Both the position numbers and the translations under genes were made by a program. Below are positions 10,793-55,170 of a stretch of 64,000 nt of DNA, piece after piece (the stretch's first letter is position 1; the number at the start of each line of letters is the position of its first letter). The DNA lies in contig NC_030388.2 of the NCBI RefSeq assembly GCF_001625215.2, positions 23,548,558 through 23,612,557 on the forward strand. Reading direction: 5' to 3'. This stretch comes from Daucus carota subsp. sativus. Its lineage: Eukaryota; Streptophyta; Magnoliopsida; Apiales; Apiaceae. The notes beneath the pieces were generated by a model. That model had not been told where the DNA came from and did not search any database. It was given only the letters and a program-made list of their open reading frames with translations.

Positions 10793-11790
10793 TAGATGTC
10801 TTCCTCCTCCCCATCCTGTATCATTGCTTCAAATTCTGGTTCATCAAGTGAGAGCTGAGCAAATTCTCCAATATTTCCATCGGGATCAAAATTGTCTCCA
10901 CCTAACAAATGATAAATACTTACTAACTACACAATATAAAATATATTAGAATTGATATATATAATATAATTATTATATATAACTTGAAAGACACCGACAA
11001 ACATCCCACAATTTTGAAGGTCCTTTGACATATTCATCATCCTTACGTGAAAGCACACGGAGGTTATTATGCACAAAAACTAAGTCTTCCGTCGTGGATG
11101 TCTCCAATCTGTTTCTCTTCACTGTTTGAATTAGTGAGTAAGTGCTCCAATTTCTCTCAATACACGAAGAAGAAGCTGGTTGTTCAAGTAATTTGAACGC
11201 TAAAGCTTGTAACATTGGCGTACTTGTTCTATGATTTTCCCACCAAGAAACTGCACTCTCTGTAATTCTACCATCAATGACATGAGCCTGATTGAAATAC
11301 CCACTTCCTGTAGAAAAAGCTCCGAACTCGGTAAAGACTTTTTGCAAGTCAGTAGGATTTAGAAACAACCTCTTGAAACATTTGTTTCTATTAATAGAAA
11401 CTTCTTCATCTTCATGTGGAGAGATTCTCATTATTCCATTATTCCCCCCTCGAAGCCAGCCTTCACAATAGTATTTAGGCACCAAAGAGTGGGCAAGGCA
11501 GTGTAGTGCCGTGTTACTTTTATTCCACCTGCTCACCAATATATGGTGAATAGCTTCAAAAAATTCTGATTTCCCAGTAATCAAATCCTCACCTTCATGT
11601 GTAAATATAACCTTCTTCACATTCTCTATCATAGAGTCCCACATATCATAAATAAGATGCAACACAGCAGCGTCCTTATCATCTTCTCTCAACATTCCAA
11701 CAATTGGTTCAGTAATGGCTAAAATATATTCTAATTGATCCCACTAAAAATCATCCACAATACATCTTTTTACTTCCCTTGCCTTGTTAG
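10793..11790 (-). pseudogene. hAT-family transposase, C-terminal fragment
   Basis: Reading on the minus strand, 11790 to 10973 gives the C-terminal part of a hAT transposase: a KAREVKRCIVDDF block, an in-frame TAG at about 11743, then WDQLEYILAITEPIVGMLRE. The dimerisation region follows, with SWWENHRTSTPMLQALAFKL and QPASSSCIERNWSTYS. A second exon (about 10902-10793) gives an acidic tail with SLDEPEFEAM and GEEEDI. hAT transposases cut and paste DNA and leave 8-bp duplications. The N-terminal zinc finger and the catalytic region are absent, and the stop codon makes it inactive. It lies in antisense inside the clathrin pseudogene. Confidence 0.88.
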
Positions 11791-12390
11791 CGATGACATT
11801 ATATAGTTAATATTAAAACTATTTATTTTAATTATAATAATGTATCTCTGACATAATCATAATTTTAACGACCTCAAATTGTAATTAAAATTTAAAATTT
11901 CAAATGACTCATAACCAAATTAGGTGAGATAAGTATATATATATTTTACGATTTTAAATTGTATAAGTGAAAATCAAAATTCAAGTTTGAAACTCGGCTT
12001 GTAATAAAATATTAAAAATTATAAAGACTCAACAAGGCTCGCGAATAATTTAAAATTCGAAAGGTTGAATCATTTACATCATAATTGACACATATGTAAT
12101 CAAATTTGAGTTGGTCAATATGGTCAAATTGACGGATCGGACACAGATCCTAAAAGGTTTCATCAGTTATTAAAAGTGTGTATATAGTATAAATATGTAT
12201 TGAAATTTGTGCTTTGCACGAACTTAAATTAGTTATTTTAATAGATTATTTTATTATATATACATAAATATTTTACAATTTGTAATATTTTTATGATCAT
12301 GCATATACTTATAATTGTATGTTTAAAAATATATAAATGACTAATTCTAAATAAACATAAAATCCTATTATTGTATTAGTATACCTATTC

Positions 12391-12945
12391 TATGTATCTT
12401 AACATAAGCACAAACTCTCCGATTCTTGTATGTTTTATTAAGCAGATGCTCCCTTGAGACATAGAATTTGTAATTAGTGATTTTTTTTGGAATCTATTTT
12501 ATTTGGTTTCTATTTGATCACTTGCCTGTATATATATATATTGTTTATTATGATAATCTGGATTATAATAGAGAATAATTTGGTGGCTAAGTGCGGGTTT
12601 ATTATTAGAATTTTTGTGATTGATATTGAACTGAAAATTGTTTTTCTCTTTGTTATGGGTTACGACCCATGCATATTCTTCTTTTCTTTGGTTGAAAAAT
12701 CCTAGGCGTAGTGGTTCTTCTGCGGTTGGATCAACTGAGGCTCGTGGTTCCCAGGGTCATCTATCTTTTTTGTTGTTTTTCTTCCTGTACTGCATCATTG
12801 ACCCTTAGCGCCCCAGGCATGTACTGTTCATACCAAATTTCTATAAAAATGTAATAAATTTTATGTATATTAACATAAGCACAAACTCTCTGATTCTTGT
12901 ATGTTTTATTAAGCAGATGCTCTTGAGACATATAATTTTTGTAAG
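12391..12945. repeat. Pair of about 80-bp direct repeats flanking a 390-bp dispersed repeat
   Basis: 12391-12472 and 12863-12945 share 'aacataagcacaaactctc' and 'gattcttgtatgttttatta' with a few differences. Between them, 12634-12790 is a diverged copy of 4552-4715; both carry 'tctgcggttgga' and 'ggctcgtg'. The duplicated flanks suggest an insertion with local duplication, or unequal exchange. Confidence 0.7.
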
Positions 12946-13745: not shown

Positions 13746-14920
13746 GCACCAAAGCCCGACTTTTTTGGTATCTTGACAGGGGTATTTGAAGATTTGAATT
13801 TTTCCCTTCAAATATCTTGTTCCTGCATAGAAATATAGAATCAAGACGGATGGAAATATAAGGAATCTGAGCCACCCATATATGTTGGAGTAAAGGAATA
13901 TGTGAGCAGGATGATTGTAAAGTGTAAAGGGTTAGATCGGCTAAACTTGCAATGATGTAATTAACCGTGGATGAGTTCATGAAGTATACAAGGGTTGGTG
14001 GAACCTACCAACCAGATGTAGAATGACCATGTTTATTGTTTAACTTGATCTAATTTGATTTGTTTTTGTCACGATACATAATCGGATACATAATCGGGTG
14101 GCGGATGCAGGATTTAGTATATGGTGTGTCACATATTTCATCAAACACCTTGCAGTCTTTATTTTTTCTTTTTCAAATTGTGATTTTTAAAAAATCTAAA
14201 ACTATGAGTATAATAGAGGAGAATTCTGAATAGTCATATCACAAGAACTTGAAGTTTTAGAGTGAAGAAAATCAATTGACGGAGAAGCCAGAACATTTGA
14301 CGGAGACAGGAAAAGCTGTGTACCAATTACAAGATGTATACATAAGTACACATATAAATGTAAAAAAACTAAAAAATAATAAAGGTAGGTCACATGCACT
14401 ATCATTAGCAATGGTACATCCGCCACTGTACATAATTAAAAAGCCGAATTTACCCGTGATGGGTGGGAACAGTCCATAACCCGAGATTTAAAATATACCG
14501 GCTAGCGGTTCCCCATAAAAAAAACAGAATTTCAAATATTTTAGGATATAATTATTCATTAAAAAATCAACCAGATTGTAAGCTTGTCAATAATTGTGCA
14601 ACACACTGAAAATTCTAGTAATATAATTTGTGTGCAGTAGCCAGTGGCCCAGTAGCAACAAAACGTCAAAAATTGGAGTTTTTAATTTTCATTTATCAAG
14701 CTAAATAATTATTGTCTACAAGTGCAGCCGACAATTCAACTTGGTAATGGATGGTAGACCAGGGGAAGTTTTCAGATGACTACCCTTCCCCTGGTAGCTA
14801 TGGTGATTCTCAGAAAGTGCTTGAATATCTACACAAGTCCTCAGCACTCATAACCAGTATATCAGTGAAACAAGGATTAGAAGGTCAGAAAGGAAACAAA
14901 CAGAAACAAAAGTTACAAAG

Positions 14921-17900
14921 ATGAGGGCACATGAACTATCTTCGTACCTCGTGTTCCTTGCTCTAATCATCTCAAATTCTAGCGCTAGACTAAGTGGAAA
15001 CGAAAGAGATCAACAAGCATTATTGGCCTTCAGAGCAAAGATCTTTAATGATCCCCTCGGAGTTTTTAGCTCATGGAATATGTCTCTCCACTTCTGCAGT
15101 TGGGTAGGGATTACATGCAGTAAACAGCACAAAAGAGTCACCAGCATAAACCTCTCATCTAAAGCTCTGGTAGGTTCTTTGTCTCCTGATGTAGGAAACA
15201 TGAGTTTTCTGAGTGAAATCATTCTCTACGACAACCATCTTCAAGGCGCAATTCCTCAAGAAGTAGACCGGCTTTTCAGGCTAAAAGTTCTAAACTTAGG
15301 ACAAAATGCTTTTGAAGGAAGCATACCAAATACCTTGGGACGACTTAATAGGTTGGTCATTCTCAAACTTTTTTCCAATAAACTCTCCGGTGTGATCCCA
15401 ACTTCTGTTTTCAATCTTTCGTCACTGAATGTCTTCAATTTGGCCAATAATCAACTTCAAGGAAGTATACCTTCAGGCTTTGGGTCGACTCTTCCCAATC
15501 TGCAAAAGATTCAGTTATCAGATAACAAATTCAGTGGAAGCATTCCCATGTCACTTTATAATGCTTCTAAACTTCAAACTATTGATTTGCAGTTCAACAA
15601 TTTTAGTGGCCCCATATCTGTAGATTGTAGAAGGTTACTGTATCTTCAAAAACTGAGTCTGGAAAATAATAATCTCGGACTTGGGGAAGAGGATGACTCA
15701 AATTTTTTTTGACTCATTAAAAAATTGCCGCAGCTTAAAGATATTGGAACTGGGGGCCAACAATTTACAAGGATCACTATCCCGTTCTATTGCTAATCTA
15801 TCAGTTGAGCTAACAATGATAAGCTTAGCAGATAATCAGATCTCAGGAAGCATCCCTCCCGATATATCAAAATTTATCAACTTGATCTTTTTATCTTTAG
15901 AAGGAAACAACTTCACCGGCATTATTCCCCCTGAAATCACCGAACTTGGAAAGTTGCAACGTGTTCTTCTTTCTAACAATAGATTTTCAGGGAACATTCC
16001 AGCCTCCATTGGGAACCTATCTATGTTGGATGAGATACATTTACAAAATAATGATTTGAACGGAATGATTCCTCCTAGTTTTGGAAATTGTCCAATGTTG
16101 GTCCTCTTGGATTTGTCTCAAAATAACCTCAGCGGGACTATCCCTAACGAACTTTTTCAGGTTACTCCTTTTTCTGTCAAATTAAATATTTCTCGAAACC
16201 ATTTGGTTGGATCACTACCGGCAGGTATTGGTGCTTTGAAAACCTTAGTTGAATTGGATATCTCTGAAAATGAGTTTGCTGGTTTCATTCCAGCAGAGCT
16301 TGGCGACTGTGTCACCCTTGATTCACTATACATGCAAGGCAACTTCTTACAGGGCAATATCTCCCAATCAATGAAAAAGTTGAGAGGTCTGCGGAATGTT
16401 GATCTTTCTCGCAATAATTTATCTGGGAAAATCCCAGATTTTTTTGAAAACCTATCCTTGAAATATCTAAATCTAAGCTGGAATCATTTTAAAGGAGAGT
16501 TACATACAAAAGGAGTATTTGCAAATGCAAGTGCATTTTCAATAGTAGGCAACAAAGGGCTCTGTGGAGGCATACCTGAACTGCGGCTACGAAGATGCAG
16601 TACACACAAAATGTCTTGGGTACAAATTTTAATCATGATAGGTTCTATACAAGTTCTTCTCGTTGTCGGTTGCCTTTTGTGGCTTAGAAGGAAAAAAACT
16701 GAAACACGTGCAGTATCAATTGGACCTGCATCAGTATTTCTGATCAGATTGTCATATGAGCTTCTCCACCAAGCAACTGACGGGTTCTCACGGGCCAACT
16801 TGGTCAGCGAGGGTGGTTTTGGGTCGGTGTACAAAGGAGAACTGGGTGCACAGTACAGTGAAAACGCTGTTGCCATTAAAGTATTCAATGAAGGAGCAGC
16901 CAACAATTTCAACACGGAGTGTGGAGCCCTACAAAATATACGCCACAGAAACATTGTTAAGATCAGGAGTACATGCAAAAGCATCGAAAGAAGCGGCAAA
17001 GAGTTTACAGCTATCATTTACGACTTTATGGAGAATGGAAGCTTAGATAGGTGGCAATATTTAACATGTCGAACATCTCATCATGAGCTTAGCATGCCTC
17101 AGATTCTGAACCTAAAGAACAGAATAAACATAGCGATTGATGTGGCTAGTGCGCTTGATTATCTTCATAATCAATTGATTGATCCCTTAATACATTGTAA
17201 CCTAAGACAAAGCAATATTTTGCTAGATGCAGAAATGAGTGCATATGTATCAAACTTTGGACTGGCAAAGTTTCTTGCAGATCAATGGCATTCTGATGGA
17301 TTCACAGGACCCTCTGAATATGCACCTCCAGGTAAAATAACTATACAATTTCAACTTCATACATGATCTTTTGTATTGTGTAGTTTTCTCTTGGCCAAAT
17401 CAGTTGAGATCTGGTCAGATTCACCCCCAAGTTGGGATAGAATCAGAGAATTTGCCTTGGGATAGAAACTAAAATAGAAACTAATGTTATTAAGAGAATG
17501 GGAAGGTTTGGCCGTTTGGGGACCCAAGGATGGACCCCGAGGTAGACCTGGCGAGGCTTAGGTGGGGCCTAGTGGGGTCAAGGTGGGGCCTAGTGGGAAC
17601 GGGTTGGGGTCAAGTGTGGGCTCTTAAGCCTTTTTGGAGCCTGTCCAGCGCGGGGTGGATTGAGTGAGGCTGGGGATGGGCCTCAGGTGGATGATGTCAT
17701 CCAGGGGTGAGTGCAGTAATTTGTCTTGGTTTTTGTTTAAGGTTTCTATATATTGGTTCAATAGCCTATATATATATTCATATGCTTGGTGGAAAATTCT
17801 AATTATCATCGGCTTTGAAATTCTATGCACAAGAGTACTATCAGGGAAGCATGGTGTCAACTAAGGGAGATGTCTGCAGCTATGGAATAATATTACTGGA

Positions 17901-18792
17901 GTCTGGAGATGCTAACAGGGAAGAAGATTACTGACCCTATGTTTGATAGATCCTATAAGCTTCAGAACTTTGTTTCCAATGCTTTGTCGGACAGGGTAAT
18001 TGATGTTATTGACCCATTCAATCTACATGAACTTAGTAGATATGATGCAGCAATGGCAATGGATTGTCTAGAGATGCTTTTAGACATTGGTGTGAGATGT
18101 GCCCTGGAGTCACCGCAGTTTCGGCCGGACATTAAAGATACCTTGAGCATTCTGGAAACAGTTAGAAGGGTTTTCGAGGTTCTTATAATCTCTAAAAGTC
18201 TTAAAATTTTAACATTAGAACACAATGATCAGTGTGCACACAAATACAAATCACTAGCATCCTTGTGGCTGTTGAACACCATAAACTCATCTGTTAAAGC
18301 ATATGCACCAACTGGGAAAAAAAAAAATTCATCCAATAAAACGAATTGACGTATTTCATTAATGCAAGGTCCGTCAATGAAATGGACACCAATCCGATAC
18401 TCTACCAAATATTGATGGAGTGGGTTATGGATCGGTGGCTATCAATTTGATTGATGGATCAATAAATGTCTGTCGCATAGGTAAAGGTGCATCAATATGT
18501 TGATTGGACCATTTGATGAATTAAAGAAAGAGAATTTGATGCGAATAGTAATCAAATTGATTTGATAAATTTATCAACTGAAGCTCCAAATAGGTGCATA
18601 TGCTCTTACAGATTGATTAATACTATTCAATTAATAGTTTTCCTGTGTCAAAAAAAAATTAAATAAAATGTTTTGCTTCAGGACAATACAGGTGGTACTG
18701 AGACATATACTACAGGAAGTTTTCAAGATGCAGTCTTGGTGGCTCAAATAAATTCGAGATCTCTACCATGGAACAGGTACAATTTTCCATAG
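14921..18792 (+). pseudogene. LRR receptor-like kinase (Xa21/EFR-like class), frameshifted, pseudokinase domain
   Basis: Starts at 14921 with a signal peptide, an N-terminal cap (CSWVGITC) and about twenty extracellular LRRs (N-L-x-G-x-I-P type), then a membrane span at about 16620-16680 followed by RRKK, and a kinase domain. Exons: 14921-17331, 17834-18178, and probably 18682 onward. Two breaks exist: an extra T in the T-run at 15703-15710, and an extra 7 bp ('tctggag' repeated) near 17898-17910. The kinase keeps the glycine loop (EGGFGSVYKG) and VAIK lysine, but the catalytic loop reads HCNLRQSN instead of HCDLKPSN and DFG is NFG, so phosphotransfer should be lost. Such receptors usually sense microbial or peptide ligands at the cell surface. 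The last exon may run to a stop at 18790-18792 or splice at 18776 into the next kinase. Confidence 0.88.
18297..18605. mobile_element. Tourist-like (PIF/Harbinger) miniature element
   Basis: 309 bp with terminal inverted repeats 'aagcatatgcacc' (left) and 'ggtgcatatgctc' (right), flanked by the target trinucleotide TTA at 18294-18296 and 18606-18608. It lies in the proposed intron 18179-18681 of the receptor kinase. Confidence 0.8.
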
Positions 18793-18799
18793 TTTTAAT

Positions 18800-19329
18800 T
18801 AGAGCCTGACAATCATGTCGTTTCGTGTTTTCGTGTACTCATAGCTAAAACCGAAAACGATCCGAAATCATTTCGTGTACCTGTTTACCCGATCCGAATA
18901 CGAAACGAAATCTTTTGTGTAAACACGAAAAGAAACAAAAAGTACACGAATTAATTTCGTTTACTTTCATGCACTTTTGGTTTATATGAAACAGTCGAAA
19001 TAATTATACCCGAATACACGAAACAGACAAGAAATACTAATGAATATATAAAATAAGTATGTGTATATTGTTATAATACATATATTTATAAGAATATATA
19101 TTACGTATATATAATATATTATAATATATAAAAACTAAAAATTATATATAAAATATTTCGTGTACTTTCGTGTTCCGAAAATGAAAATTCATATCCGACA
19201 CGAAATCTATCGTGTGATTTCGGGTTCATGTACTTGTGTGTTTCATGTATTGAAAATCAAAACCCATAACTGTTTTTTCGTGTCGTTACGTTTCGTGTTA
19301 GCTTGTCAAGTGTTAAATTGCCGGGCTTG
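18800..19329. mobile_element. hAT-type miniature element (530 bp) with 8-bp target duplication
   Basis: It is flanked by 'gttttaat' at 18792-18799 and 19330-19337. The imperfect ends 'tagagcctgacaat' and (reverse complement of the right end) 'caagcccggcaatt' match each other. The interior is rich in 'cgtgtttcgtgtac'-like motifs. A related element is at 52142-52629. It sits inside a putative intron (18777-19394) that would be about 80 bp without it. Confidence 0.8.
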
Positions 19330-19377
19330 GTTTTAATGCATACAGATGTATCAATCACACTTTGAATCTTTTATTTA

Positions 19378-21767
19378 ATGTCCAAACGGTGTAGGTTAGA
19401 AGTTCCAGAAGTGCCCTCTCGAAATCTAGTAGAAAGAAATTCAGGTGGAGCCGACAGGAATGTAGCCGCAACAAGGCAATCGATGGATCCTTCCCCTCAG
19501 ATGGCTCCAAATTCAGTCACAGTGTCATACACAAGGCAGTTGAGGGATCCTTCCCCTCAGATGGCTCCAAATTTAGCCACAGTGTCATACATGGATCTCC
19601 ATAAAGCAACTAATGGGTTTTCCTCAGCCAACTTAGTCGGTGCAGGTGGTTTCGGTTCTGTTTACAAAGGAACATTTGATCAAGAATATGTTCGTCTTCT
19701 CTTAGGGGATAGTGGGATAGAAGATGAGATCGGAATAGCTATTGCAATCAAAGTATTTAACCTTCAACGTAGAGGTGCAGTAAAAAGTTTCAACACCGAG
19801 TATCAAACTTTAAACGACATTGACCACACATATCTTGTCAAGCTTATAACTACATGCACAAGTGTGGATCAGGATGGTCACGACTTTCGAGCTATTCTTT
19901 TTGAGTTCATGGATCAAGGGAGTTTAGAGATGTGGCTGCATCCAACATATAAAAGTAACCATCATGGTCCCATTAAACCTCGAATACTGACCCTTTATGC
20001 CAGAATAAGCATAGGAATTGACATAGCCTATGCCCTCGATTATCTTCATAATCAATGCAAGAATCAAATAATCCATTGTGATCTAAAACCAGGCAACATT
20101 TTGATAGACAAAAACATGTTTGCACGCATTGCAGATTTTGGATTGGCGATAACTCTTCCTGAATACCCAAGTATGAACCTTTGCAGCAGCTCAACTGGAA
20201 TACGAGGAACCACCGGATATATAGCTCCAGGTAAAGTTACTATAAAACTTAGAATAATATGAATTCACCGGGGCTAAATGTAAGACATGATCAGTTTTAG
20301 CTTAGCATAGAACGAGTATACAACGTATACTATTTTTTTTTTCTTTTGCCCCAAGTATACTCATTATTTTCTATGAAGTAGATAGAACAAAAAAGAACAA
20401 GAATTTATAAGCTATGAAAGGCCAGAGTCCGCCCCTCCTCCCTAGCTTGAATCACAGATATTATCATGCCTACATAAAATAAATTAAAACTCACATCACT
20501 AATATTTATCACATTACTAATATTTAGGTATTATGCTCTCATAGTATCATTATTTTGTTTACAACATCAATGTTTATATGCTATTTTCTTGTTAAATTAT
20601 AAAAGATGACATCTTCAATGTTTATGCAGCATTTTCCTATTAATTTGATGATTAATCTTCAACTAACTTCTTTTACTTTCTTTCTCCATAACTACAACAT
20701 CCATTAGACCATTAATTCTCCCTCATACCCATTTACTCTTTTATCTCTTTCTTATTTTTATTTGCACATATATTTGTCAACTTATTTTACATTTTTACAT
20801 AAAATAAATATTTATGGTTAGTGATGTTTAACCAATTTTTATATTTTTAATTTATTCAACTTATTATAATTGTATGCTCATTAAAAAAAAATTGCATGTT
20901 TAAATATTATTATTAATATATATTGAAAATTATTTATATAAAAATATGATTTTTTTTTGTTGGGTACAGAACTTGAACAATTCAGGCAAAGGAAAATTCT
21001 CTAATGGCTTGTTTGGAAACTTGAATTTCATATGAAATTCTAGATCTGATCAAAAGACATGTTTGGATACATTAAAAAAGTTTGATTTGGATTTCATTTA
21101 AAATCCCGGACATTCTAATACTAGTTTAAAGTTGAGAATTTGAAATGACGCCTTAAATCGTGTTATTTGAAATCAAGAATTTGAAATGATATACATGTTT
21201 CCAAACAAAATCTAATAAGATTTGCTTTTATATCTTTTATATGTCTTACATATGCTGGTATTCGAGTCTTTATAAAGATAGACATATATATATGTGTAGA
21301 TTCTTCCTAGAACTCATCATAAATTAGATACATCAATAAATTTGGCAGAGATTATTCTGTAATTGTCCTCTATTATGTAATTTGTGGCTAAAGCTTTTAC
21401 TTTAATATTTTCTTCGCTATTAGAATATGGTCTAGGATGCAAGATGACAACCAAGGGAGACACATACAGCTTTGGGATTCTATTACTGGAGATGCTGACA
21501 GGGAAGAAGCCTACTAATCGTATGTTTCGGGGAGGGCTTAACCTTCACAATTTTGTTTCGCTGTCCTTACCTGACGACGTGATTAAAATTACTGACCCAC
21601 TCATGAAGGTAATGACATCTGCAAATAAAGGGGATGACAAACGAGTAGAGGATTGCCTGACTAGAATGTACAGTATTGGTCTAGCATGCTCCAAGACATC
21701 AGCAAAGGACCGACCAGACATGCGTGATGTATTATATGAGCTGGAATCCATTAGGAACATCTTCTAG
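19378..21767 (+). CDS. Receptor-like protein kinase domain, catalytically complete (non-RD)
   Basis: CDS join 19378-20230 and 21424-21767 (398 aa if started at 19378). The kinase domain has GAGGFGSVYKG, AIAIKVF lysine, alpha-C glutamate (FNTEYQTL), catalytic loop IIHCDLKPGNIL, ADFGLA and GTTGYIAPEYG. All catalytic residues are present. The residue before the catalytic Asp is Cys, so it is a non-RD kinase, as is common in pattern-recognition receptors. The exon break within the APE motif is at the same place and phase as in the preceding gene, so the two are paralogues. There is no signal peptide, LRR or membrane span of its own. An acceptor AG at 19393-19394 allows an in-phase splice from 18776. 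The N-terminal linker carries a 20-residue tandem repeat (19471-19590). It could be a kinase-only gene, the stump of a receptor, or the second half of a tandem-kinase receptor. Confidence 0.8.
19471..19590 (+). repeat. 60-bp coding tandem repeat in kinase linker
   Basis: Two in-frame 60-bp units (19471-19530 and 19531-19590) encode near-identical 20-residue peptides sharing DPSPQMAPN and VSY, directly before the juxtamembrane-like LHKATNGFS of the kinase. Confidence 0.9.
20231..21423 (+). other. Intron of the second kinase, repeat-bearing
   Basis: The 1193-bp intron (GT at 20231, AG at 21422-21423) splits the glutamate of the APE motif. It contains AT-rich sequence and a miniature element candidate at 21006-21212. 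Confidence 0.85.
21006..21212. mobile_element. Miniature inverted-repeat element, 'TGTTTGGAAAC' family
   Basis: Left end 'ggcttgtttggaaac' and right end 'gtttccaaacaaaatc' are inverted repeats. The interior has 'tttcatatgaaattc'- and 'atttgaaatga'-type motifs shared with 30339-30504. The target duplication is uncertain ('ctaat' occurs on both sides). Confidence 0.6.
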
Positions 21768-22627: not shown

Positions 22628-24587
22628 TTAGAGAAATTCTCTATGATACACTCATAGATTTGGCTTTTCCCGTTGGTACACCTACTTTTTTGACTGCTAC
22701 GAGTGATACCACCATGGTAATAAATGTCGTAGTAGTGCACTCTCCCGTTAGTCGAAACGTTAGAAAAACGTTAGGAGGGTCAGTTTTTCAAAAAATTAAC
22801 AATAAAATAAAGATTTTAAGTTTAAAATAAAAAAACAAGCGGACACACATAACAGATGTCACACGAAGGTAGTGGACACTTCATCACTTCGAGAACAGCG
22901 AGTTAGGGTTTAAGCGAGAGCGAGAGCGAGGGTTTTGCCAGCAAGGAGGAAATCTCTTCATCACTGAATCTCAAGCTCGAGTACAAATCTCTTCGTTTTT
23001 TCAGGTATGTACTCTGTCTTTGTTGCCCTTTTCGAACTCGCTTTTTCTTCATATATATTCGTTTTGTATTCGTTTTGTAGGCACCATATGTTTGTGTTTG
23101 TGATTTTATAGTGTAATGATAGCAATATAATGTTCTACATATGTGATATGCATGTTTGATTTCATATGTTTTAGGGTTTTGATTTGTTGAAAATGGATGA
23201 TGAGTTTAAAGTTCTAAGGTTTAATTGGAGGGGTAAAATTGTTGATATTAGAGTGGAGATAGATAAGTGCACTTTGTTAGATGTAGTGATGGATTACGAA
23301 GCTAAAGGGAAGGAGGAAGGGGTTAAGCTTGATTATCATTTCCCAACATTTTATTATCGGTACAAGGATGATCAATTTCAGTTAGTAGTTGACAAAGATA
23401 TGATGACTATGTTTAAAAGATGTGCTGAGAAAGCTTTGATTCCCATTGCTGTTGGAACAACCATAAAGCCAAGCCCCATTCACAAGTTGGTTCTTAATTT
23501 GAGGAGGAGTAATGAAGCAAAGCACCCCCCTGCAGCTGCAATAGACAATGTAGTTGAAAATGTCCAGGAAAATGATGTTGGACTTGAAGATTTGGAAGAT
23601 AACTCAGTTGCCACTGTTAGGCAAGAACCAAAACAGAAACAAAAGGCAAAGAAAAAAGCAATGCCAAAACAGAAAGGGAAGGCAAAAATAAGAGGCCAAT
23701 CTAGTGTGAACCTACCACCAGACCCCATATCACCTAAAACTGCATTTCAGTCCTTGCCAGTGAGGAGGAGCCCTAGATTTTCCCCAACCTTGATGGTCCC
23801 AACAGCAAAAACTTCATCATTTTCAGATCAGGGCACCTTTAAGAAGAAAGTGCCAAGGACAACTGCAGTGAGGAAAGGTCAAGGTTCAGTGCAGGGAGAA
23901 TCTTCTACATCTCAAGTAAGAAGGAGGGTTGATTTTCCCAGTGAAGATGATGAGGCCAAGGACTCTGATGATGAAGTCATGGCAAGTGATAATCTACCTT
24001 CAGATGAGGAAGAAGATATAGGTGGGATTCCAAAATTTAAAGACAATTTTAAACCAGGCAAGTGGCATGATTTCATAGATGAGGATGATGATAGTAATTA
24101 CTATCAGGCTCTATACAGGAATGGAGAGTTGTTTGAGGATAAAAAATTTGGCTCTATTAAGTTAAGAGCTTGGATGATATTTATGGACAAAAAGCACTTC
24201 AAGGACACTCTCAAAGATTATGCTATCCAGGAGGGGTTTGCTATCAATGTTTTGGCAGCTGATAACAAAAGGTACACAGGCACATGTTATGCTGAGAACT
24301 GTGGTTGGAGGATACATGCTAGCAGGTTACCAGATGAGAAGACTTGGGCTATAAAAAAGATTGAACCGAGTGTACATACATGTAGAGGGCTGGAGACTTA
24401 TAATCCATTGTGTGATGTGAAGTGGGCTTCTGCAAAGCTAATGGAAGATATCAGAGCAAACCCAGACATCCCAGGAAAGACCTTGAATGAGCTTCTTTTT
24501 CAGAGACTATGTACCAATGAACATAGTACTTTTATTGGTACTATGTTCGTAAAAATTAGAATAAAAGTGAAGATATTGAGTGATTAA
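22628..24587 (+). mobile_element. Mutator-like element, left end plus truncated gene
   Basis: The left region (about 22632-22800) begins with 'gagaaattctctatgatac' and has the look of a Mutator-type terminal repeat read into a leader. The gene that follows (23193-24587) is a MuDR-type N-terminal half. The right end of the element and the catalytic half of the transposase are missing; unrelated repeat DNA starts at about 24510. Confidence 0.6.
23193..24587 (+). pseudogene. MuDR-like transposase, N-terminal portion
   Basis: The ATG at 23193 starts MDDEFKVLRFNWRGKIVDI, a PB1-like N-terminal region found in plant MuDR-like proteins. A low-complexity basic and acidic middle part (poly-K/Q, then EDDEAKDSDDE) follows, then the plant MuDR DNA-binding-type domain (about 24140-24500) with C-x4-C (CYAENCGWRIHASR) and a histidine/cysteine pair (HTC). 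Normally the DDE-type MULE transposase domain and a CCHC knuckle follow; here the frame runs from NELLFQR into a foreign repeat and stops at 24585-24587. It is therefore a truncated gene. An upstream leader intron (about 23005-23174) is possible. Domain identity is from pattern memory, not a search. Confidence 0.75.
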
Positions 24588-29361: not shown

Positions 29362-31570
29362 TTAAGCCAGTGTAAGCTGTACAATTTCTCTGAACTCCAG
29401 CCTCCTGGTCTCAGTATAAAATGTCCTATGCTTATTAGGCCAATAAGTTAGCCAAATCCATCCCCTTATCTCCCATTCCATCACCTTACCTCTTGCACTT
29501 TTATCCACCTTCCACACCACATTCTCCCCATACTCATCATCCGCGAAAATGATCCCTCCTTGTCGCGTAAAAGGCCTGTACACATTCTTGTACCGGTTCT
29601 TGAACCAAGCCCGGGGATTGAGCAAAGAAAACATAGATGGTTTGGATGAGAAAACCTCCCTACCGTTTACACTGTCATGAAGATACCAGTTCAGGTTTCC
29701 GCTGTTTCCATAGACTGATTGCTCGAATTTCCAGGGCTTAAGGCTCACGGTCACTGTCTCTCCAGCTGATATGTTGAGCCCCAAAGTGTTTGGCGGATTC
29801 AATGAGCCTTCCACGGTTTTTTCTGAGCTTATGTCTCGTATGGGATTTTCGGATGATTTGCTGACAGATATGCTTAAGACATTCATCTGCTGAATTGGAG
29901 TTAATTGTAGGGATATTCGAGAAGGGAAGTGTTTTTCAGCTTTTCCAGCTCCTCTTTCCTTCATTAGAGTATCATTTACTAGCTTGACAATGTCACACCT
30001 GATCATCGTGATTAATTAGCAGAAAACATCATCAACAAAAAGTATAGCATTTCGTAAAAATTATAATACAATCTCATAAAATTCAAATTAAAATACAGAA
30101 GAAAAATTGGCACCGAAGCTGATATTTGATAGGCCAAGACAATTCTAAGGTAAGAAGAAAGGAATATTGTGGTGCTACAAGCAATTTTTCGATTCTCATG
30201 TCTAGTTCCAGTAGTGCTGCATAAAGCTCTCTTTTTCGTTTCTTCATAAACAACTCTCACAATAATTCCACACATAACATGAATATAAACTAAGGTTAAA
30301 TGTATATACCCCCTAAAAGCATCCAGATTAAGTCAACAGGCCGTTTGGAAACATGCAATTTATTTCAAATGATGGATATCAAATAACAGGATTTGAGTTG
30401 TCATTTCTAATTTTCAGATTACTAATATTTGAATGTCTGGATTTCAAATGAAATCCAAATCCAAATCCAGAAATTCAAATGAAATCGATGTTCCCAAACA
30501 GACCATTAGTTCATTTAACTTGAATCTGTACTACTTGCACTACTCCATATTAGACTTTTAGCGTCGATCAAAAGAGGTATAAGGCGTCGGTTATTGGGCT
30601 TAGTAAATGAAGGACTGGAAATCAAAATACAGCATCACATGTATATTGAAATTTGATAGTCATAAATATGGTACCTTATGTTATCAACTCTAGCTACGAC
30701 CTCGATCCAACTATCTCGAATAATCACTCTATGATTGAGCTGAATCACACCCTCAACTTGATGGTAATTCAAAGAGAAGACCACCTTCTCATCCGGCGAT
30801 GGATTGCTAGACTTCTCCAAGTCCATGGCTATCACGGGACAAAACAGCTGCACTTTCCACATCCCGAACGTCGAATTCCCATACGAAAACAAAGAGGAAG
30901 GCGTTTTGAGGGCGGTATTCTTCGCCTGAACCTCCACAATCCAATTAGTAATCGCGAGGTTCACCGCCCTCATCCATTGTTCTTCCACATTCGAGCCTAA
31001 TAATCTCATCAAAAGCTTTGAAGCCTCTCGTGATTGCTCACAGGCATAATGCTCTTTAAGCCTGTGCAGGCATTCAGATCGAAGATCCGTGGGAGCTTCG
31101 TATATGCAAATAAGGAACGAAAGAGTTAGAAATGAGAAGTTGAATATTTCTTTGAAGTTAGTTACGGAACTCAGTTTCGGAAGCCTGAACAAAGAGATGT
31201 TCTTGTTCGGACAATATTGTAGGATCACATCAACCAAAGTTAAGAAAATTTTCGAGACATTATCTTCGTGGTCTAATAAATTCACGGATTTCGGGTTGAT
31301 TCTTATGGATTTAGATGTCCAAAGAGAGATAATTTCACTATAATCTGCAAAGAGAGAAAAAATCACAAACGAGGAAGACTGGAGTTTTTTCGAGATAGAG
31401 AGCTTGAGAGAAGGCCGAAACGAAGACGAAGAAAAAATCGAAATCGACACGGAATTCGACGTCCATTCGGTGATCGGAGGAAGGTTCTGAATCCATGTCC
31501 AAATATCTGGGAATGAAGAGGAGGAAGAAGAAGCCATGTTGCTTGTATTAAAGTGATGAACAAGTTCCAT
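29362..31570 (-). CDS. Conserved-looking plant protein of unknown function
   Basis: Exons on the minus strand: 31570-30675 and 29998-29362, joined in phase (VDNIR|CDIVKL), 510 aa. The first ATG gives MELVHHFNTSNMASSSSSSF; the ATG 11 codons later (31537) may be the true start, because MASSSSSSFPDIW looks like a conserved beginning. No signal peptide, no clear membrane span and no catalytic motif. The N-terminal half is leucine-rich and alpha-helical (DVILQYCPN, LKEHYACEQSREASKLL); the C-terminal half is beta-rich with many Trp (MEWEIRGWIWLTYWPNKHRTF). The splice sites are clean and the frame is fully open, so I take it as a functional gene. I do not know its role. Confidence 0.8.
30339..30504. 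mobile_element. Miniature element of the 'TTTGGAAAC' family in the intron of the 29362 gene
   Basis: Left end 'ggccgtttggaaacat' and right end 'gatgttcccaaacagacc' are inverted repeats. The interior shares 'atttcaaatgaaatcc'-type motifs with 21006-21212. No convincing target duplication. Confidence 0.6.
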
Positions 31571-33642
31571 GGAATTTTTGTTTGTGTAAATGAACTAGGA
31601 ATATGATGCTGTTATTTAAAGACATTTGATTGGTGAATGAAAAGGTGTTCTGAAGCCAGGTGGGAGAAAAAGCAAGTGAATCAAAAACTTTGAAATTGGG
31701 CTACCAATGATCAAGATGAATATTGCCATGTGTTATATACGTACACTCATACAAGAGTATTGCTTGATTAATCAATTTTCTCCTAGCACACACATCTTTT
31801 ATGATAGGGTTGAATCATATTAAAAATATTTTTGATACGACACAAATTAAGGAATTGGAGTAGGTTTGGATAAATTTATTGTATAAAAACAAGAACTTGC
31901 ACAAAACATTACATATTTTATCATCTTTTTTTTTTCAAAGAAGAAAAAGGTATTTATGAGGTTTTTTATATTCTTAATATTTATATTGGATAAATAATTG
32001 CTTCTTTTCATTAGAATTGCAAAATTAAATATCTATTTCAAAAAAATTATATATATTTACATACATTTTCAAAAATACACATTTTTTTAAGAAAAAATAT
32101 GATAACCAAACAAATTCAAAATATTTATCAAATATATATGTTATCTTAAATTCGAGGTAAAAGTGCTTTTAGAACTTTTATCCATTAAATGTTATTTTAT
32201 CGTAAGTTTCACTAGTAAATAATTTGAGAGCTCGGATGGAGAACAATGTATTGAGCACTATGCTGATAATATCATATTTATTTAAGTTAGAAACACTAAT
32301 TTCATCTAACAGCTAGAATTAAAATAAATCTATGAAATCTTTGGATAATTTTTTTCTGTTTTCAAAAGAAAATATATGCGTACTTTTATTTATGTCCCAA
32401 AATATATGCGTAATTGATTTTACTAGTAGGGGGGGATCTGTATTGACAGGGAGAAAGAAGGTCTCTTATATGCGCTTTGCTCCTGAAAGCATAATATTGT
32501 CTGTGCCCCGTCAGTCAGCCGTAAGCACGCAATTCTACTAATTTCAAAACATAATCACGTTTATCACGAGTACGGAACATACATATTTTCCGCATAAATG
32601 CTGCTTCACTAAAGTATGGGACATAGATGGTAATGTGTTTGCTTTAAATTTTACATATATCAATATATGGTAATGTGTTAGCTTCACATGAGCAGGTAGT
32701 CCGTGTTCAGAGTTATTAATTACATCAACTGATATTGAATCAACAAATAACTCCAAAACATGAACAACGATATAAAAGACGAGTTATTGCGATATTCACC
32801 ATGGTATCATATTTGATACAAGTCTTACGGATCATCCAAAATATCATGTAAATCCTTCTAAGAAAACATTATCGAGACTCATAACAAAACACACAAAAAC
32901 ATCAAAACAAAAACAAACATCATTTTGAATAATTTAAGTTTTATTTACATAAAATATTAATATCAAATATCATATGAATCATATAATTACTTAACAATCA
33001 CCTCTAATCGGCGTAACATCAAATCCAAACTCCTCCCTAATCAAGTTATGATATCACGAGAAATAATTAATCTAAAAGTTTATAATTATAAACTATTTGA
33101 AAGAGAGTCTCAAATAAATCATATATTATTTGACTTGCGAAATTAAATTTTGTTAGAAACCTATGAGATGAATTGTACGCATCATCACATGCAACTCGAC
33201 ACGTGGAATATAATTAGGCTAGGCTAATTTAAGCGAACAAGTGGTAAACTATCAAAGAAAGTTAAAAAAAAATTGCATGGATTGAAAACTTATGGGCGTA
33301 GCTTAATATATAGTTTTAGATATGTATATATGCCCGTTAAAAATGAATGGTAGACAACTAGGTTGAACTGTAGTGGAGTTTGAGTACGAATCAGAAATTG
33401 TTCCTTGCTTGAACAAGGCGATTACAATATCGAATCGATCTTCAAGGTACCATTCCTTTTCACGCAGGTGCTCCATGTTAGCTTCCAATCAATTTTGACA
33501 GCGACGGCCTATCTATCTGCACAATCAGCCTGACCTATTTTTATAGAAATTTTATTTAAATTAATAAAATGATTTTTAAGCAAAAATTCTGAGTATACCG
33601 CAATCTGCTTCTATTTTTTTTTTTTTTTTTCTCTGTTGTGTA
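31571..33642. other. Intergenic, AT-rich
   Basis: Upstream flank of the minus-strand 29362 gene followed by AT-rich sequence; no gene, structural RNA or clear element recognised. Confidence 0.5.
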
Positions 33643-42438: not shown

Positions 42439-42913
42439 GAGCATTTCCAATGAAACTCTTAAACAAGCTCTTAAGTTCTATCTTTAATTTAAAGAGCAAA
42501 TCAAAAAATTGTGCTCCAATGAGTTCCTAGACTAGAAGTTCTTTAAAGATTTAAGAGTCTATTATCTCTCTTCTCTTTTAAGGAGCATCTTATAGCTCTT
42601 AACTTCTTTCCGTCAAAAAAAAAATAGCTCTTAACTTCTTATTCATGAATATTATATTAATTTTTTACCCACTTCACATCCAACCTTTCTCTCTTTTCAC
42701 TATTCTCTCTCATTTATACGAATAAAACCCGCTTCACATCCAACCTTTCTCTCTTTTGACTATTCTCTCTCATTTATATGAATAAAATATGAATAGAGAG
42801 TAGGTATAAAAAAAAGGATCAGAGTTGTCATCATTTTTAATGTCCTAACTCATTAAGAGCCACATATTATATAATATTTTAAAAAGTGATTTCATAGCAC
42901 ATTGAAGATGCTC
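42439..42913. mobile_element. Tourist-like miniature element, 475 bp
   Basis: Ends 'gagcatttccaatg' and 'cattgaagatgctc' are inverted, and both sides are flanked by TTA (42436-42438 and 42914-42916). It contains a 60-bp tandem duplication (42668-42727 and 42728-42787). Confidence 0.8.
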
Positions 42914-48323: not shown

Positions 48324-48540
48324 GATTGATGCCATGAAGCCGGGATATGTGGACAACTTGAATTGATGTCATGTGTCTAGATGATGCATATATTTACCTA
48401 AACTCAGGTATGTGGATAACTCGAATTAATGTCACGTGTTTGGATGATGCATACGTTTATCTAGGCTCGGATACCTGGACAACTCAAATTGATGCCATGT
48501 GTTTAGATGATGCATAGATTTACCTACGTCGTATACCCGT
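48324..48540. repeat. 63-bp tandem repeat, about 3.4 copies
   Basis: Units start at 48362, 48425 and 48488 (period 63), each beginning 'att(g/a)atg(t/c)ca(t/c)gtgt' and containing 'gatgatgcata'. A partial, more diverged unit precedes at 48324. Confidence 0.85.
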
Positions 48541-54200: not shown

Positions 54201-55170
54201 AGAGGAAAATATTTTGAAATCCTGAAAGGAACAAACATATACTAGTTAAAACTCACCACTAAATAAGGGATGTATATCTATTTGGACAATCCTTTTTAAC
54301 AAAGATAAAATAAGAAGTAATTAAGTCTAAAACCATATACTAACTCATAATCACAAATGTCCATATCTATGAACATGCTTTACTTTAACAACTCTCACAA
54401 CGAGTTGAAAGGTTGTAACTTGAAAAACAGCATAAGATCAGTTTGTAAGCACGGGAGGTGCCACAAGTTGAACATAAATAGATTCCCAACTGAACCCTTA
54501 ACAGACATAGAATATAAACTGATGGTCATAAACAAATTATCAGGACGCACAAAAACTAAACAAAGGAGCACCCCGAATTCAAGAACATAAAGGAGATGCT
54601 GACTTTTAACTTAGTAAAAACCATACTTAGAACTTATTCTTCAACTAAAAAAATCTTTTTTTTGTCTCCTTACACAATACAAAACCTTGAGGCAAACAAG
54701 CTTTTGTTTCGCCACAAATACAATCAACTAATTCTTTGTTCACAAAATATTGCCAGAGCTAAAACAAATATAAGAGAAGATGCGAATTTAACTTGATTCA
54801 AAGGAAAACTAAACAAATATAATAGCAGTTCATAACTAGCAAACCCAGAATAAAATCATACAAATTATCACCATTCAATTAGTGCAAAACCATAAAAAAA
54901 TAAATTGACCCAAGAACCCAATAATATCGGACCTTTAATAGATTCGAGCTCAAGAGAAGAGAGTTGAATTCTGTTCGTTGACTGGTACTCGTTAATGAAG
55001 AAAGACAGTTGCTGTGGAGGCGTGATTGCTTCTGGTTGTGGTGCTGCTCCATTGTTTTTGTGAGCTGGTTTGGTTTGGTTTTTGTTTGGTTTTTTGAATT
55101 TGGGTTTTTTGGGGGCGACTGGATGTTTGTTTTGTTTCCCGGTTTTGGAATGTTGTTTGCCGCTCACCAT
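51292..55170 (-). CDS. CMSS1/Cms1-like ribosomal small-subunit biogenesis protein
   Basis: Minus-strand exons 55170-54933, 54058-53863, 53743-53671, 52035-51986, 51635-51522 and 51421-51292 join in phase to 266 aa, close to other family members. The start is a basic, Lys/Pro-rich tail (KKPKFKKPNKN), probably nuclear/nucleolar. Conserved blocks: PGNPALLVISLSALRSLELYRGLR, KLFSKHMKVEDQ, NIATGTPSRIKKLI, GLSRLKVIVLDMH and WDLYKSYFHQRVLEGDLRICLYG. Cms1-type proteins belong to the U3-containing 90S pre-ribosome and have a DEAD-box-like fold without helicase residues: GTPSR sits where DEAD-box helicases have TPGR, and VLDMH where they have the DEAD box. All splice sites are GT-AG. The long intron 52036-53670 holds a hAT-type miniature element. 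Likely a functional housekeeping gene. Confidence 0.88.
52142..52629. mobile_element. hAT-type miniature element in an intron of the CMSS1-like gene
   Basis: Ends 'tagacccagcaactt' and (reverse complement of the right end) 'tagacctggtaattc' match each other and resemble those of the element at 18800-19329. Both interiors are rich in 'acacgaaaagtac'-type sequence. The flanking octamers ('aattgatc' and 'cttgattc') are no longer identical. Confidence 0.65.

Follow-up and report, generated by a model that had tools for sequence, protein, structure and literature searches.

How is a plant locus to be read in which a receptor unit with an apparently dead kinase domain is followed by a second, seemingly active kinase: as one transcript or two genes, and as a working receptor or the remains of one? 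The question is raised by positions 14,921 to 21,767 of a 64,000-nucleotide (nt) stretch of the carrot genome (Daucus carota subsp. sativus, contig NC_030388.2), here called the window, which is plant DNA of about 33% G+C with introns and leucine-rich repeat (LRR) receptor genes. The two kinase-like domains, designated K1 and K2, lie on the same strand and are 46.7% identical across 315 aligned codons. The reading favoured here, with moderate confidence, is of a decayed LRR receptor-kinase locus, in which a maintained pseudokinase receptor was recently broken in frame beside an intact kinase to which it was perhaps once joined. An earlier note on this DNA had described two paralogous kinase domains head to tail, an LRR receptor part before the first, loss of the HCD and DFG aspartates from the first with all motifs kept in the second, and splice phases that let the two join; all of this was borne out (Table 1).

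Receptor unit and kinase domains

The unit at 14921-18178 has the order of an LRR receptor-like kinase, with an LRR ectodomain, a transmembrane stretch and a kinase domain recognized by Pfam matches and hydropathy. The single uninterrupted coding frame required of such a receptor is absent, as two frame breaks are present. The top relatives of the LRR part among solved structures are the ectodomains of GSO1 (486.9 bits) and FLS2 (388.2 bits), and both the LRR and the kinase matches stand far above chance expectation. The receptor presumably belongs to subfamily XII of these kinases (the EFR/FLS2 kind). A direct repeat (12387-12469 and 12858-12938, 93% identical) lies upstream of it.

K1 carries the motifs SEGGFGSV, AIK, HCNLRQSN, VSNFGLA and APPE. 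Both catalytic aspartates are missing (HCN and NFG), the catalytic-loop lysine is replaced by arginine and the first P-loop glycine by serine; a pseudokinase is recognized by the loss of the catalytic-loop and DFG aspartates, and K1 has lost the two. Its first kinase exon ends at 17331, with GT at 17332 and the acceptor AG at 17832-17833. The K1 C-lobe (17891-18346) matched no Pfam family at E 0.001 and was recognized as a kinase through K2 alone (41.9% identity over 93 residues, E 1.8e-18). The K1 intron has a G+C content of 44%, as against 26% in the K2 intron, and contains a 21-nt tandem repeat (17560-17600).

The motifs of K2 are GAGGFGSV, AIK, HCDLKPGN, IADFGLA and IAPE. With the P-loop glycine, VAIK lysine, HxD aspartate, DFG aspartate and APE all in place, K2 is predicted to be an active-type kinase. 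Its first exon ends at 20230, followed by GT at 20231, and the acceptor AG lies at 21422-21423; by addition, the two exons give an uninterrupted frame of 398 codons with an in-frame ATG at 19378. No LRR was matched in K2 by Pfam, and hydropathy gave no transmembrane-like stretch. Its best scores against solved structures were with BRI1 (92.7 bits) and FLS2 (83.0 bits), which do not single out subfamily XII. An inverted-repeat element (20988-21229) is found in the K2 intron, and a relative of it lies on the other strand at 30343-30509 (80% over 126 nt). Downstream of K2 is a 470-codon open frame (23175-24584) with a MuDR-type transposase DNA-binding domain.

The loss of both aspartates, the lysine and the P-loop glycine is confined to K1. 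An overall faster change in K1 was considered and rejected, as the relative-rate tests were not significant with either outgroup: K1-only and K2-only changes numbered 24 and 15 with BRI1 (chi2 2.08), and 15 and 13 with CERK1 (chi2 0.14), in a small test of two outgroups and one exon. BRI1 and CERK1 agree at 69 sites, and from this shared residue K1 differs at 28 and K2 at 23. Since the losses fall on catalytic residues without a clear overall speed-up, K1 has, to judge from its sequence, the look of a pseudokinase retained for its fold and not of a randomly decaying domain.

Table 1. Features of the carrot locus in window coordinates
Feature	Position	Strand	Basis
Receptor N-terminal part: start ATG, hydrophobic N-terminus, LRRNT_2, LRRs; open up to first frame break	14921-15709	+	Pfam LRRNT_2 E 1.3e-11, LRR_8 E 2.2e-14
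First frame break: run of eight T	15704-15711	+	Sequence and frames
Remaining LRR ectodomain, different frame	15711-16625	+	Pfam LRR_8 E 1.3e-21
Transmembrane-like stretch	16626-16682	+	Kyte-Doolittle mean over 19 residues, maximum 2.53
K1 first exon part: pseudokinase N-lobe through activation segment	16725-17331	+	Pfam PK_Tyr_Ser-Thr E 3.4e-23, motifs
K1 intron, GC-rich (44%)	17332-17833	+	Donor CAG/GTAAAA; position same as K2 intron
K1 C-lobe exon; sense codon GAG at its end where K2 carries TAG stop	17834-18178	+	Likeness to K2
Second frame break: 7-nt near-repeat CTGGAGT/CTGGAGA, single copy in K2	17897-17910	+	Frames; comparison with 21480-21500
Inverted-repeat element in first linker gap; 46-nt arms, 74% complementary	18272-18630	+	
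Candidate linker exon, 95 nt, open, no Pfam match	18682-18776	+	AG 18680-18681, GT 18777-18778, phases fit
hAT-like insert (18800-19329) flanked by the direct repeat GTTTTAAT (8 nt; 18792-18799 and 19330-19337)	18792-19337	+	
K2 first exon; all catalytic motifs present	19378-20230 (ATG 19378 if separate gene; 19395 if linker-spliced)	+	Pfam Pkinase E 1.3e-25, motifs
60-nt tandem duplication, in frame, ahead of K2 kinase domain	19471-19590	+	Copies 92% identical
K2 C-lobe exon with TAG stop	21424-21767	+	Pfam PK_Tyr_Ser-Thr E 1.1e-07

Frame breaks and the probable order of decay

The presence of two frame breaks, also claimed by the earlier note, was upheld, with the T run corrected to 15704-15711 and the near-repeat placed at 17897-17910. 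The note had held that both must be errors or else no fusion protein is made. The second break has the appearance of a real mutation, because it is a 7-nt near-repeat and not a homopolymer miscount, so the proviso itself decides the case. Because of the breaks, the full fusion protein cannot be made from the sequence as it stands without a frame change; K2 alone might be. Of the proposed fusion in one transcript, the domain order and a frame-compatible splice path stand and the protein as drawn does not.

Outside the two breaks, the receptor codons contain no stop in 917. When neutral drift was simulated (200 runs), the stop-free share was 53.5% at 0.005 substitutions per site, 20.5% at 0.01, 4% at 0.02 and 0.5% at 0.05, which argues that the decay is recent and short compared with the divergence of K1 and K2 (dS 1.04, dN 0.44, ratio 0.43; a dS near 1 is close to saturation). 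The K1 codons at both lost aspartates are each two bases away from the GAT of K2. Two differences per codon exceed what so short a relaxed time would give, and the aspartate losses would thus be older than the breaks. If the ancestral codon was K2-like, the loss of catalysis most likely preceded that of the reading frame, and the receptor was probably maintained with K1 as a pseudokinase until the breaks arose.

One transcript or two genes

Under the favoured reading of a decayed locus, the first unit would have been a membrane receptor whose kinase domain turned pseudokinase while it was retained as a protein, and which then recently lost its reading frame. The second unit would be an intact kinase of similar general kind that itself has neither LRRs nor a membrane part. 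A former joint transcript would have run LRR - transmembrane - pseudokinase - linker - kinase, and a ligand signal may have been relayed by K1 without catalysis, with phosphorylation carried out by the attached K2. The balance tips slightly towards K1 and K2 having once been read as one transcript, because there is no stop at the end of K1, K2 has stayed intact without a receptor half, and the introns are short if the hAT-like insert is left out of the count.

Where the K2 stop aligns, K1 has the sense codon GAG followed by GT, and its frame past 18178 stays open for 56 further codons, to 18349. Open runs of this length occurred in 1.5% of 400 shuffles and, in real non-coding sequence, from 4.4% of 4475 start points. 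The splice path leaves K1 at 18178 in phase 0, passes through the linker exon and re-enters the K2 frame after the AG at 19393-19394. The donor of the linker exon is good (97th percentile of 632 GT) and its acceptor fair (77th percentile for pyrimidines), and this exon is the sole candidate in the spacer with the needed phase at the thresholds used, which were set post hoc, just below the observed scores.

Two elements interrupt the spacer. Transposons of the hAT superfamily as a rule have inverted ends that resemble each other and duplicate 8 nt of their target, and the insert nearer to K2 shows both features: the octamer GTTTTAAT, of which there are no further copies between 12000 and 24000, flanks the termini TAGAGCCTGACAA and CAAGCCCGGCAA. 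It accordingly qualifies as a hAT-like non-autonomous transposon. When it is discounted, the intron between linker and K2 measures 80 nt and the distance from K1 to K2 is 678 nt. The inverted-repeat element at 18272-18630 was left in these figures because no convincing target duplication was found flanking it. The likeness between the AT-rich middle of the hAT-like insert and further AT-rich parts of the window is one of composition only. A hAT transposase dimerisation domain is encoded on the minus strand at 10976-11743 (Pfam E 2.5e-11) and could have supplied the insert with activity.

Several results weigh against a former joint transcript. Of the four splice sites that the linker needs, two are weak. 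With a score of 0.71, at the 89th percentile of 632 GT, the donor at 18179 falls below the 4.5 of both kinase-intron donors, and the acceptor at 19393 is pyrimidine-poor (38th percentile), although K1's own acceptor stands only at the 57th. As a sign of an exon, the 41% G+C of the linker is not significant, being equalled in 15.2% of 1243 non-coding 95-nt windows, and no Pfam family was matched by it. Such a linker exon appears in 4.2% of 400 dinucleotide-shuffled spacers with the phase fixed and in 13% with any phase, while a second run gave a linker-like exon in 5.3% of 300 spacers; at looser thresholds, the share of shuffles rises to 14-88%. The 56 open codons past K1 also agree with a plain C-terminal extension ending at 18349.

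A rival reading is of two genes that were never joined. K1 would then belong to a dead receptor gene extended by the loss of its stop, and K2 would be a truncated kinase copy that arose when unequal crossing over or a deletion rearranged a tandem receptor array; K2 would be either expressed alone from the ATG at 19378 or silent. The linker exon and its splice sites lie partly within chance, the open run beyond K1 requires no splicing, and K2 has both an in-frame ATG and its 398-codon uninterrupted frame; tandem arrays are moreover frequent in this receptor class, as reported for Medicago LRR-XII (PMC7555646). Such an origin is nevertheless judged rather unlikely, as the 678 nt between the K1 and K2 exons before the insertion leave little space for a gene end and a promoter, and as K2 is still intact despite the want of an LRR, a transmembrane stretch and a linker-free upstream exon.

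A working single receptor of the order LRR - transmembrane - pseudokinase - kinase, with both breaks due to sequencing or haplotype errors, would agree with the 917 codons without another stop, with the location of one break inside an eight-T run and with the joining splice phases. This explanation is improbable: the 7-nt near-repeat is unlike the usual base-calling error, and no break occurs in the matched parts of an AP2-domain open reading frame (325 codons), three sugar-transporter exons (joining at profile positions 121/122 and 296/320), a laccase-like open reading frame or K2, a weak check in that these frames are open by construction. It is likewise quite improbable that an intact haplotype or orthologue still expresses a single-chain LRR surface receptor with an asparagine-substituted, non-catalytic kinase followed by its own active kinase in a Janus-kinase-like order.

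Known receptors, tandem kinases and the surrounding window

The receptor unit shares with LRR receptor kinases of the EFR/FLS2 kind an LRRNT with LRRs, one transmembrane stretch, a non-RD-like HC(D/N) catalytic loop and one kinase-domain intron. It differs in that K1 is without both aspartates, the lysine and the P-loop glycine, in its broken frame and in the second kinase that follows. EFR (LRR-XIIa) was reported to activate its co-receptor BAK1 without catalysis of its own, and an EFR variant with the catalytic aspartate changed to asparagine gave a robust oxidative burst (PMC11259431). K1 naturally carries the aspartate-to-asparagine change that was tolerated experimentally in EFR. By the same account, FLS2 D997N had reduced function and catalytic independence was limited to Arabidopsis XIIa domains (PMC11259431).

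Plant tandem kinase-pseudokinase proteins such as WTK1/Yr15 and RPG1 likewise place a kinase and a pseudokinase, both of receptor-kinase type, next to each other, and the residues most often missing from their pseudokinases are D166 and D184 (PMC6170490). In these proteins both domains lie in one polypeptide; for the carrot locus a frame-compatible splice path was found, with a similar linker arising by chance in 4-13% of shuffles. In the first survey, the 92 predicted members have no further conserved domains (PMC6170490), whereas in carrot LRR and membrane parts stand ahead of K1. The order is also reversed, as WTK1 has the kinase before the pseudokinase. WTK7-TM (Pm36) is a validated tandem kinase with a membrane part, and its function needs both kinase domains (PMC11006675); unlike the carrot unit, it lacks an LRR ectodomain, and its transmembrane segment lies at the C-terminus. 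LRR receptor-like kinases with two kinase domains have been predicted in soybean (3 of 467; PMC4776374) and Medicago (2 of 329; PMC7555646), with the same stated architecture as the carrot locus, if joined. The two-kinase architecture is thus already in print in the form of rare predictions. The sunflower figure of 189 multi-kinase-domain proteins among 2583 was not used as a tandem kinase count, because 73 of them appear to match two overlapping kinase models. No description of the combination LRR - pseudokinase - kinase in a receptor was found in the extracts of the literature searched for it.

The order pseudokinase before kinase suggests a further parallel. Janus kinases of animals have a pseudokinase ahead of the kinase, beside a membrane receptor; they are separate from the receptor chain, and no homology is claimed. 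A comparison with Janus kinases was drawn for tandem kinase proteins (PMC6170490). If relatives of the carrot locus keep a working order, they would be natural tests of LRR receptor signalling via a non-catalytic kinase to which an effector kinase is attached, and might represent an intermediate between receptor kinases and tandem kinases of the cytoplasm. More modestly, the carrot copy illustrates how the decay of a receptor-kinase locus may proceed, catalysis first and frame later.

When four pieces of the locus were searched against the window with tblastn, only the two units and otherwise LRR self-matches were returned, together with 54489-54548 (E 0.84, chance level) and 14887-15051 on the opposite strand (E 0.79). 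No family reached its gathering score in an Rfam scan. Among viral contigs, the K2 query gave 6 pattern matches, none of which was confirmed, and the query covering the second LRR part and K1 (LRR-B/K1) gave no match; among prokaryotic genome contigs, the LRR-B/K1 query gave 20 pattern matches and the K2 query 22, again with none confirmed. These results say little, because plant relatives are not expected in such collections. Two open frames on the minus strand, 29365-30015 (217 codons) and 30638-31594 (319 codons), had no Pfam match at E 0.001. Farther along the window, repeats are present as two copies of a 60-nt unit (42667-42787) and nearly three copies of a 63-nt unit (48344-48526).

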